A stretch of 64,000 nt of DNA. It comes from a bacterium. GTDB taxonomy: Bacteria; Oederibacteriota; CAKKQC01. The position numbers and the translations under genes were made by a program. Of the stretch, positions 1 through 3,242 are shown in pieces. The notes beneath the pieces are model-generated. The model was not told where the DNA came from, made no database searches, and was given only the letters and a program-made list of their open reading frames with translations. Within the stretch, counting starts at the first letter, position 1. Each line of letters opens with the position of its first letter. The stretch is taken from positions 265,741 to 329,740 of the forward strand of contig CAKKQC010000001.1 of the NCBI GenBank assembly GCA_919901855.1, in the 5' to 3' direction.

Positions 1-282
1 GGCAACCCCCTGCTCGGTGAAAGCCAAGGCGGGATACCGCCGGCCCCCCCGGCCCTTCTTTGAGATCACAATTTGTGATCTCAAACCGGCCTCCTCTTCC
101 AGCGTCAGGGATATCAGGAAGTCCTCGGGGAATCGGGTGCGGTTCCGCTTGACCTGCTGATTGAGGATGCGCGTGGGTACCCCATAGAGTCCCGCAAGGT
201 CCCGATCGAGGATCACCTTGACGCCCCGAATCAGGTGGATGAGCCCTTCGGCGCTGACAACCGGTACCGGCGAAGTCTTCAT
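1..282 (-). CDS. ORF6N (KilA-N-like) domain protein, C-terminus beyond window
   Basis: Ninety-four residues are visible before the window edge. The N-terminal ORF6N domain is clear: [11 protein letters not shown] (25-35), NQQVKRN (41-47), FPEDF (51-55), LRSQIVISK (67-75) and AFTEQGV (87-93). The family is found in phages and bacterial accessory DNA and is thought to bind DNA. The ATG at 282 is chosen because AGGAGGTGG lies just upstream and the domain starts shortly after it. The codons for LRSQIVISK are themselves a 27-bp palindrome (59-85), and the same palindrome recurs twice upstream of the gene, which suggests self-recognition or a dispersed repeat. The C-terminal half, usually a variable domain, is not visible, so the precise role is unknown. 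Confidence 0.85.
59..85. repeat. 27-bp palindrome, copy 1, inside ORF6N coding sequence
   Basis: Arms TTTGAGATCAC and GTGATCTCAAA flank the centre AATTT, giving 13-bp perfect arms around one base. Read on the minus strand it encodes LRSQIVISK in the ORF6N domain. The same arms occur at 392-418, and a co-varied version occurs at 500-526. Confidence 0.9.
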
Positions 283-391
283 GGGCCACCTCCTGATTCC
301 ATCGTCGCCCCAGGTTGCCCCTCGGGCACCCCCGCAGTTGCGGTGTTTGCCAGACGCTGGGCAAGCAGATGCGGACGATCGGGCTGACCTC

Positions 392-418
392 TTTGAGATC
401 ACAAATTGTGATCTCAAA
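392..418. repeat. 27-bp palindrome, copy 2, upstream of ORF6N gene
   Basis: The arms TTTGAGATCAC and GTGATCTCAAA are identical to copy 1, with centre AAATT. It lies about 110 bp upstream of the ORF6N start codon, where an operator could sit. No gene is recognised around it; bases 283-531 hold only this copy, copy 3 and the ORF6N Shine-Dalgarno. Confidence 0.9.
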
Positions 419-499
419 CGAACCGCCCCCAGGCCTCAGCTGGCAATAGCCTATTCCTGTCTATCCTTGTGGCGCAGATCGCCACTTTGAGGGCCCCCG

Positions 500-526
500 T
501 TTGAGGTCACCAATTGTGACCTCAAA
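500..526. repeat. 27-bp palindrome, copy 3, with compensatory change
   Basis: Arms TTTGAGGTCAC and GTGACCTCAAA surround CAATT. Compared with copies 1 and 2, one A-T pair per arm has become G-C on both sides, so symmetry is kept. It ends 5 bp from the stop codon of the ABC transporter gene. There is no T-tract, so it is not a classical terminator. Confidence 0.88.
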
Positions 527-531
527 CAGCC

Positions 532-2301
532 TCAGGCCTGGGGAGTCGAGGCCTCCTGGAACTGGAGGTCGCAGAGCTTGCGGTAGAGTCCGCCCTGCGC
601 GTACAGGGCGTCGTGGGTGCCGGAGGCCACGATCCTCCCCGCCTCGAGCACGACGATCCGGTCGGCGCGGCGCACGGTCGCGAGCCGGTGGGCGATCAGG
701 AGCACGGTCCGGTTGGCCATGAGCTGGTCGAGCGCGGACTGGATGAGCGCCTCCGAGGCCGCGTCGAGCGAGGCCGTCGCCTCGTCCAGGATCAGGATCG
801 GGGCGTCCTTGAGGAACGCGCGCGCGATCGAGAGCCGCTGGCGCTCGCCGCCCGAGAGCTTGACCCCGCGGTCGCCGATTACGGTGTCGTACCCCTCGGG
901 GAGGGCCTTGAGGAAGTCGTGGGCGCCCGCGGCGGCGGCCGCGTCTTCGACGGCGTCATGCGACGCCCCCGGCCGCGCGTAGAGGAGGTTGTCCCGCGCG
1001 GAGGCGTTGAAGAGCAGGACCTCCTGGGTCACGAGCGCGACCTGGCTCCGGAGCGACGCCACCATTACACCCCGGAGGTCGTGGCCGTCGATGATGAGCG
1101 ACCCCGCGTCGGGGTCATAGAACCGCATCAGGAGGTCGATGACCGTGGTCTTGCCCGCCCCCGACGGCCCGACGAACGCGAGCCGGCTCCCGTGCGGAAT
1201 GTCCAGGGAGAGATCGTGCAGGACCGGCTCGCCCTCGCGGTACGCGAAGGTCACGTGGTCGTACCGGATCGCGGTCGAGAAGGTCGGGAGGACGACCGCC
1301 GCCGGGGTGTCGCGGACCTCGGGCACCTCGTCCAGGATCGGGAAGACGCGCTCGGTCGCCGACAGCCCGGACTGGAGGTTATTCCACAGCCCGTTGAGCG
1401 CCTTCACCTGCGGGTAGAGGAGGAGCACGGTCCCGATGAACGACCCCAGCTCGCCCCCCGTCATCGCGCCCTTCATGTGGATCTGCCAACCCGCGACGAG
1501 GATGAGGAAGAAGAACCCGATGACCCCGATCGTCTCCATGATGGGGGAGGAGCGCGCCTGGACGCGGAGCACGCGCAGGGTCACGGAGAGCTGTTCGAGG
1601 AGCTTGTGACGCCAGCGGTGGATCTCGCGGTCCTCGCCCTCGTACGCCTGCACGAGCTTCATCTGGCCAAGCGTCTCCTGGAGATGCGCCGCCAGATCGG
1701 ACGCGAGCTCCTGGACCTGGCGCGAGTACCGGCGAAGCGCGCGGCCGAACTTCCGGATCGGCCAGACGGCGACGGGGAAGACGAGGAGGGCGACGGCTGC
1801 GAGCTTCCAGTTGAGGTGGACGAGCCAGGCCGAGAGCCCGACGATCGAGACCGCGGACAACGACGCCGGACCCACGATCTGGGTCAGCATGACCTGCATC
1901 GCGGCGACGTCGTTGATGACCCGGGACAGCAGGTCGCCCGTCTTGCGCGCGTGGTAGAACTTCAGCGACAGCCGCGACAGTCTGGTGAAGAGCGCGAGCC
2001 GCAGGTCGAAGATCACGAGCTGGCCCACGGACCCTGTTAGGTAGTCGGAGCCGTACTTGGCGAACGCCTTGAGGATCGTCGCGCCCACCAGCAGGCCCGC
2101 GATCTCGGCCAGCTTGAGGAACGCCGCCCACCGTTCGGGGTCGGTCGCCGGCCGCGCGAAGAGGCCCTGGTCCAGGAACGGCTTGATGAGCCACGCGGTC
2201 GCGACGTTCAGTCCCGCGAACGCGGCCATGCACAGGAGCGCGAGGGCGAGGCGGCCCGAGTAGGGCGCGAGCCAGCCGAGGAGGCGGCGAAGGAGGGTCA
2301 C
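532..2301 (-). CDS. MsbA-type ABC exporter (TMD-NBD half-transporter)
   Basis: A 589-residue protein, the usual length for a half-transporter that dimerises in the inner membrane to flip lipids such as lipid A precursors, or to export drugs. The N-terminal membrane domain begins LLRRLLGWLAPYSGRL and runs to about residue 330. The ATPase domain has Walker A GPSGAGKTT (about 378-386), signature LSGGERQ (about 480) and Walker B ILILDEATASLD (about 500). The GTG at 2301 is preferred because upstream in-frame sequence lacks similarity and reads antisense to the next gene. It is 8 bp downstream of the outer-membrane protein gene and probably in one operon with it. The substrate cannot be read; MsbA is the best guess in a diderm. 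Confidence 0.85.
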   Translation of the reverse strand: MTLLRRLLGWLAPYSGRLALALLCMAAFAGLNVATAWLIKPFLDQGLFARPATDPERWAAFLKLAEIAGLLVGATILKAFAKYGSDYLTGSVGQLVIFDLRLALFTRLSRLSLKFYHARKTGDLLSRVINDVAAMQVMLTQIVGPASLSAVSIVGLSAWLVHLNWKLAAVALLVFPVAVWPIRKFGRALRRYSRQVQELASDLAAHLQETLGQMKLVQAYEGEDREIHRWRHKLLEQLSVTLRVLRVQARSSPIMETIGVIGFFFLILVAGWQIHMKGAMTGGELGSFIGTVLLLYPQVKALNGLWNNLQSGLSATERVFPILDEVPEVRDTPAAVVLPTFSTAIRYDHVTFAYREGEPVLHDLSLDIPHGSRLAFVGPSGAGKTTVIDLLMRFYDPDAGSLIIDGHDLRGVMVASLRSQVALVTQEVLLFNASARDNLLYARPGASHDAVEDAAAAAGAHDFLKALPEGYDTVIGDRGVKLSGGERQRLSIARAFLKDAPILILDEATASLDAASEALIQSALDQLMANRTVLLIAHRLATVRRADRIVVLEAGRIVASGTHDALYAQGGLYRKLCDLQFQEASTPQA

Positions 2302-2309
2302 CTGGGGGC

Positions 2310-3242
2310 TTACTCGCCGCCGGGCTTCAGGCGCTTCGTGAACCTGAGCGTGAGACCGATCCGGTGAACGAGCCCGAGCTCGCCCGCGGGCGCGAGCGTG
2401 TAGTCCAGATTCCACTGGTCGCGGCGTCCGCCCAGCCCGATCGCCCAGCCGAAACCGTGCCCTTCGCGGAGCTCGACCATGCCGCGGAAGAACGCGCCGT
2501 ACCAGTCGCCGAGCTCGACCGCGAGCCCGCCGGCCGTCGGCCCCCAGAGCGCCAGGCTCGTGCCTCCCCAGGCCCGCAGGGGCACCGGAATCCACTCGGG
2601 CGGATCGTAGCGGACCGACGCGTCAAACGTCATCGGGAACGGGTCCCGGGACGTCCGGGACTGGATCGTTCCGCCAAACCCGCGCATCGCGAGGCCGACC
2701 GCCCAAGAAGGGTCCGGCAGCCAGACCCCGCCGAGGTCCAGCGCCATCCCCTCGATCGCGGTGTCGCCGAACGACTCGTGCACCACGCGAACCCCGGCCC
2801 CCACGGCCAGGGCCTCGTGGAGGAAAGACGCCCCGAGCACGGAGGCCTGCACGCCCAGGGGCCGCATGAGCGCCCCGGTCCCGTCGGGCAGGATCTCGGA
2901 CGTCACCGTGACTGGATCGTGCAGGACGAAGGCTCCGCCGACGCCCACGACGGCCTCCTCGCCAACGGGCAGCATGGTCGCGAGCGATTCGCCGATGAAC
3001 CCGTCGGTCCACGACACGTGCGTGAGGCCCGCCGTGTACTCGAGCTTGAGCGGGGCGGCGGCCGGGTTGCCCCACACCGCCCCCTCGCCCTCGACCAGCG
3101 CGGCGGCGCCGACCCCGAGTGCAGCCCCGCGGGCGTCGCCCGCGAGCGACGTGAAAACGAAGGCCTCGCGGCCCCCCGGCCCCGCGGCCACGGAGCCAGC
3201 CAGGACCAGCCACGGGGCGGCGGCGACGGCCAGGCGCCTCAC
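2310..3242 (-). CDS. PorV/PorQ-like outer-membrane beta-barrel protein
   Basis: A 310-residue exported protein with an N-terminal hydrophobic signal (LAVAAAPWLVLAGSVAAG). It then has the PorV/PorQ/UPF0164 pattern: an early AFVFTSLAGDARGAALG segment, a GNPAA turn (common as NPA in the family), and alternating amphipathic strands ending in an aromatic-containing C-terminal strand (RIGLTLRFTKRL). Relatives are long-chain-fatty-acid-transporter-like barrels, and in Bacteroidetes PorV serves type IX secretion. The GTG start at 3242 overlaps the preceding stop by 4 bp (GTGA), so translation is probably coupled to the secreted propeller protein, whose C-terminal FlgD-like domain fits a shared export route. 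That link is inference. Confidence 0.65.
   Translation of the reverse strand: MRRLAVAAAPWLVLAGSVAAGPGGREAFVFTSLAGDARGAALGVGAAALVEGEGAVWGNPAAAPLKLEYTAGLTHVSWTDGFIGESLATMLPVGEEAVVGVGGAFVLHDPVTVTSEILPDGTGALMRPLGVQASVLGASFLHEALAVGAGVRVVHESFGDTAIEGMALDLGGVWLPDPSWAVGLAMRGFGGTIQSRTSRDPFPMTFDASVRYDPPEWIPVPLRAWGGTSLALWGPTAGGLAVELGDWYGAFFRGMVELREGHGFGWAIGLGGRRDQWNLDYTLAPAGELGLVHRIGLTLRFTKRLKPGGE

Follow-up and report, generated by a model that had tools for sequence, protein, structure and literature searches.

Operators located within coding sequences are known from individual systems, such as lac O2 in lacZ, gal OI in galE and a reported site in purR. In these cases a symmetric repressor site lies in coding DNA and is thought to act by looping or blocking, but it lies outside the codons of the binding domain. 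Other known palindromes are the Rickettsia palindromic elements and repetitive extragenic palindromic (REP) sequences, some of them in coding sequence; there, one sequence is scattered through genes. Here we consider an ORF6N gene at the edge of a 64,000-nucleotide stretch (the window) from a genome of the Oederibacteriota (GenBank assembly GCA_919901855.1, contig CAKKQC010000001.1, positions 265,741 to 329,740), in which a 27-bp palindrome is formed by codons of the putative DNA-binding domain itself. Unlike the intragenic operators, such sites are found family-wide, in the domain's own codons, and co-diversify with their putative reader; unlike the Rickettsia and REP elements, each ORF6N gene has its own palindrome sequence at a fixed place.

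A nucleic-acid-binding segment that targets its own coding sequence has been described for RGG motifs encoded by RNA G-quadruplexes (PMC11789052). However, the target there is RNA, the specificity is low and the effect arises from codon composition, whereas the ORF6N palindrome is double-stranded DNA of 27 bp with base specificity, and its main candidate reader is not the peptide that it encodes. The network of Bro-N, KilA-N and ORF6N domains in phages and satellites, that is, the same protein families as considered here, has been described in terms of domain shuffling only, and the term palindrome is absent from that paper (PMC10111431). Among the open-access papers searched, we found no report of a self-encoded palindrome in ORF6N, RhuM, Bro-N or KilA-N genes; as far as this literature goes, the family-wide embedding of a target in the binding domain's own codons seems to be without precedent. 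Intragenic operators being already known, a cautious reader might call the self-embedded site a variant of them.

The ORF6N gene (positions 1..282, minus strand, ATG at 282..280) runs beyond the window start to approximately G000:C1:265390, with the genome match at G000:C1:265726-265980, and encodes a protein of 210 amino acids. It is preceded by the Shine-Dalgarno box AGGAGG (289..294, minus strand), six bases 5' of the ATG. The product belongs to PF10543 (ORF6N; E 5e-29, 100.9 bits against the curated cut-off of 27.8). As described in the first-pass annotation, there are exactly three 27-bp palindromes, none assigned to a strand. Palindrome 1, TTTGAGATCACAATTTGTGATCTCAAA (59..85), is intragenic; it coincides with codons 67-75 of the ORF6N domain (LRSQIVISK) and is a putative self-encoded binding site. 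Palindromes 2 (392..418) and 3 (500..526) lie in the non-coding upstream gap, between the ATG and the end of a neighbouring ABC-transporter gene (532-2595, minus strand). Palindrome 2, an own-like copy at -333, is situated 110-136 bp 5' of the ATG and has the same arms as palindrome 1: the two are mutual reverse complements and differ only in the centre base. Both have 30% GC in a region of 60-70% GC. Palindrome 3 directly follows the ABC-transporter stop codon. The symmetric change at its pair +-7 (A to G and T to C on the two arms, giving a G-C pair) is indeed present; however, its pair +-2 is broken, which that annotation does not mention. Three matches to the pattern with at most three mismatches occur in the window and none in 100 dinucleotide shuffles. 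Exact matches in the whole 4.68-Mb genome number three, all of them at this locus.

The window genome has five ORF6N genes, each with a palindrome at the same codons and with different arms. For a broader comparison, 157 non-redundant ORF6N genes were collected from 44 other genomes of the phylum, 80 loci of GTDB genomes from many phyla and IMG/VR contigs; the source genomes are mostly metagenome-assembled. At the corresponding loop, every one of the 157 genes contains a palindrome in which no fewer than 9 of 12 pairs are symmetric. In 152 genes the number is 10 or more, a level reached by 3 of 646 equal windows elsewhere in the same genes. A purely local curiosity is thus rejected. Over pairs 2-13 the symmetry exceeds 90%, falling to roughly one half at pairs 14-15, which sets a sharp limit at +-13. 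In a set of 65 distinct palindromes, both sides are changed in 200 pair-cells (50 after shuffling), and the covariation score is 0.69, compared to at most 0.14 for slid control structures. The half-sites are diverse (58 different ones in 132 genes), with T at -6 and C at -3 constant in essentially all genes. The palindrome is read in two frames, yielding an LRSQIVTSS-like peptide in most genes and an ELVTNCDRF-like peptide in others. Finally, its GC content does not depend on that of the gene (slope -0.05, versus 0.95 for a neighbouring control 27-mer). The covariation of the arms, the use of two frames and the independence of GC content argue that the constraint acts on DNA.

We then calculated the mutual information for every combination of an arm position with a protein column lying outside the palindrome; residues are numbered by the L093 protein, so that family position 44 is Gln42 of the window protein. 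Position 44 is linked to pairs -5,-4 with z 66, whereas other columns have a mean of 1.9. CA is accompanied by Gln (78/78), CG by Glu (24/24), GC by Arg (14/14) and TC by Lys (12/12), and asymmetric sites ending in C accompany Arg. With the alternative-frame genes included, 144 of 146 genes fit; the exceptions are L017, which has a tandem array with a fitting first unit, and L068, which is truncated and has a misaligned start. Further positions behave similarly: position 40 is Lys when G is at -7 (75/81 with a residue) and mainly Arg or a small or aromatic residue when A is there; G at -10 is accompanied by Arg at position 84 (99/109) and A by Lys (22/22); Tyr at position 85 is paired mostly with G at -8; and position 80 is Trp with C at -13 and Arg or Lys with T. 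Gln-A, Arg/Lys-G and Glu-C are chemically ordinary residue-base pairings. The window gene obeys all five rules. Its recognition-helix codons (145..174, minus strand) include Gln42 (157-159) with CA at -5,-4 and Arg38 (169-171, position 40) with A at -7; its wing codons (34..51, minus strand) include Arg78 (49-51, position 80) with T at -13, Arg82 (37-39, position 84) with G at -10 and Tyr83 (34-36, position 85) with G at -8.

The code is not a by-product of packing between the palindrome-encoded peptide and the helix, since position 44 fits in 10 of 10 alternative-frame genes, although the encoded peptide differs. The code also holds across independent changes. On a tree built without the code columns, no fewer than 38 changes of the base state are required, supported independent pairs are concordant in 10/10, 7/7, 4/4 and 5/5 cases, and independent changes link position 40 with pair 7 (about 7:0) and position 84 with pair 10 (6:0). 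One ORF6N copy of the window genome, L009:1584 (G000:C16), is interrupted by TAG and retains a perfect 12/12 palindrome matching the Lys at position 44.

As the letters of the palindrome change in lock-step with the encoded residues, an ORF6N protein almost certainly recognises its own gene, binding the palindrome as a symmetric dimer. The first-pass annotation had suggested that the protein binds this site; the covariation observed in about 150 genes, whatever their reading frame, strongly supports this. The predicted model (pLDDT 83), in which position 44 belongs to helix 39-48, has weak fold likeness to DNA-binding winged helices: Dachshund/SKI (Z 5.6-6.9), RacA-DNA (4.9), pSK1 Par-DNA (4.7) and MerR-like winged helices (4-5). 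A sequence search found no relatives of ORF6N or RhuM among solved structures. As expected of a winged helix-turn-helix, covariation ties both helix and wing of ORF6N to particular base pairs. Judging from the sequences, it is likely that ORF6N proteins are homodimeric winged helix-turn-helix regulators with a 27-bp target in their own coding sequence, probably subject to negative autoregulation. The target would be the DNA encoding the loop that separates recognition helix and wing; the helix (positions 40, 41, 44, 45) would read the inner pairs 4-7, and residues just past the palindrome (positions 80-85) the outer pairs 8-13. A dimer bound approximately 210 bp downstream of the start codon might block transcription, and at the window gene the two upstream copies might aid the block by covering the promoter or by looping. 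That binding represses the gene from within, with such assistance here, is a less secure part of this scheme, which we somewhat favour.

Similar palindromes were found in related families; the genes carrying one, bacterial and phage-borne, number in the hundreds. RhuM genes contain one at the corresponding place, with at least 10 of 12 pairs, in 68 of 75 cases (5/282 control windows), and Bro-N genes in 23 of 27 (0/111). In RhuM the helix motif S-T-I-S-x-H tracks the palindrome centre: Arg, or Lys in the ST/SV context, occurs with TTGCAA, PAISK with TTTCC or GTTCC, Glu with CGG, and aliphatic residues mostly with AAG, while the outer pairs are tracked by residues after the palindrome. The Bro-N code reads YWxK-TGAC, YWxV-TTAC and YWxD-CCGA. 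KilA-N, although chosen as a negative control, has an even-centred palindrome around CGAATTCG in 38 of 38 genes; the covariation in these 38 genes is weak (z 7-10) and points to two adjacent helix positions. The other intended control, pRha, was of no use, as it produced only weak matches, on ORF6N genes. DinD genes carry a palindrome at codons ~58-67, with arms ACCATTTCGAGGA-GA-TCCTCGATATGGT in E. coli K-12 dinD.

The latter gene (L423:5761-6585), an SOS gene in a standard laboratory strain, contains a 28-bp near-perfect palindrome within its Bro-N-like domain, and the arms vary between homologs. A match of E. coli to a viral RhuM gene was looked for and not found. RhuM has been proposed to be a toxin domain (PMC3710099); however, in these same genes (L263-L291, L292-L371) covariation has the signature of sequence-specific DNA binding by the N-terminal domain. 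A single 109-kb contig, G044:C14, contains ORF6N, RhuM and Bro-N genes, two of each.

In several ORF6N genes the coding loop contains two or three in-frame 27-bp palindromic units with differing arms (L016, L017, L034, L041, L045, L051, L141, L142). Residue 44 usually fits one fully symmetric unit, and erosion is frequent among the units that it does not fit. The three-unit arrays of L017 and L045 correspond to each other, but Arg44 of L017 fits the GC unit and Glu44 of L045 the CG unit. This looks like a possible route for specificity switching, with the arrays as candidate intermediates.

Outside the domain, a covariance model of the palindromes was run over the 44 genomes. Among the 82 best sites, 55 fall in an ORF6N domain, 9 are no more than 600 bp from one and 18 lie elsewhere; so 64 of 82 are clustered at ORF6N genes, whose surroundings make up about 0.09% of the DNA. 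Clustering of this kind was what the first-pass annotation had proposed to look for. Some of the 18 remaining sites are remnants of ORF6N genes and two are in Bro-N genes; the rest are unexplained. An own-matched upstream operator is rejected as a general rule: own-like upstream copies were observed in 12 of 146 ORF6N genes (2.9% in mismatched controls), 0 of 64 RhuM and 1 of 22 Bro-N genes, counts that vary with the length of flank considered. The window gene, with two upstream copies, is an unusually complete case.

Several observations weigh against the proposed scheme. Upstream copies are rare, so that in most genes repression would need to operate from the internal site. No sigma-70-like promoter was recognised upstream. 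The wing residues adjoin the palindrome, and thus part of the wing covariation could be linkage. A few Bro-N genes (L207, L214, L226) have no clear site. Two clusters of same-family palindromes, with three arm sequences each, were found at L178:1775, 1825, 2621 (G000:C30:24762-25634) and at L185:1441, 1521, 1576; there is no ORF6N gene in the few kb read around them, and their arms fit no ORF6N protein found in the genome. Finally, avoidance of half-sites between paralogs of the same genome does not exceed chance (1/45 versus 26/1083), and the idea that specificities are kept apart within a genome is rejected.

One alternative is that the system provides immunity between elements, the resident copy recognising and silencing its counterpart when a related phage or plasmid comes in, in the manner of prophage repressors. 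The many matches in viral contigs and the high diversity of specificities noted above agree with this. On the other hand, autorepression of the resident copy would also be required, the chromosomal copies of the window genome have no phage neighbours in the DNA read, and the paralogs show no mutual repulsion. We consider this explanation unlikely, though it is the strongest of the competitors.

Another possibility is that the palindrome spreads together with the domain, either as a target of recombination, as raised in the first-pass annotation, or of insertion, or as a mobile repeat similar to Rickettsia palindromic elements. Indeed, 27-bp units are found in tandem and in frame, isolated copies exist away from the gene, and the distribution is patchy over many phyla. 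However, a mobile repeat does not predict helix residues that track single base pairs, and this alternative leaves both the residue code and the sharp 27-bp limit unexplained. Moreover, the copies vary in sequence and do not form one repeat, and the window genome contains only 13 family copies, with 10 located at ORF6N genes. Dispersed repeats of the REP or Rickettsia type have many near-identical copies in unrelated genes; the window palindromes do not resemble them, with three exact copies at a single locus and 64 of 82 family sites at ORF6N genes. The site travels with the ORF6N domain because it is part of the domain, and this alternative appears improbable.

The protein could also be a partition (centromere-binding) or replication factor with the palindrome as its site, as might be suggested by the weak resemblance of the fold to pSK1 Par and the winged helices of P1-type ParA. 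This is more doubtful still: there is one site per gene and there are several specificities per chromosome, no partner ATPase was seen, and the fold Z stays below 8.

A hairpin in the mRNA, acting as an attenuator or as a protein-bound stem, would have twelve potential pairs and a short loop. However, tolerance of G-U pairs on the transcribed strand would skew the arm mismatches, and these have no strand bias (G-T 41, A-C 42), which argues for double-stranded DNA and not RNA. Besides, the variation is explained by DNA-reading helix residues, and an RNA structure is rejected as very improbable. Template-switch correction between the arms, a mutation type known for quasi-palindromes that would preserve symmetry without selection, is rejected as scarcely credible, as it can neither make residues some 80 bases away follow the arms nor keep the T and C at -6 and -3 nearly invariant, and so leaves the residue code unexplained.

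Unrelated to these considerations, the C-terminus of the window protein, HPPPPLVKGRFPIKG (L004:3390-3480), resembles read-through into an intergenic repeat.

If ORF6N proteins do bind the palindromes in their own genes, common families lacking a known target, namely ORF6N, RhuM, stand-alone Bro-N and DinD, would acquire both a target and an explicit recognition code. The code would be usable at once, the site being predictable from four or five residues. With almost as much confidence as the autoregulatory scheme itself, we suggest that ORF6N, Bro-N, RhuM, KilA-N and DinD follow an ancient general principle, in which the DNA encoding a binding domain holds the domain's own target via a simple code and tandem units are switching intermediates. 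As helix, wing and target share about 150 bp, specificity and target would move as one unit and could be inherited, transferred and diversified jointly. The regulator would then still fit its site after horizontal transfer or domain swapping, and this may be the reason for embedding the site in the coding sequence. Both processes are known for these families (PMC10111431), and the proposed design would keep reader and target together throughout. The coding sequence would be shaped by the specificity of its own product, and regulator and operator would form an inseparable, portable and evolvable unit.
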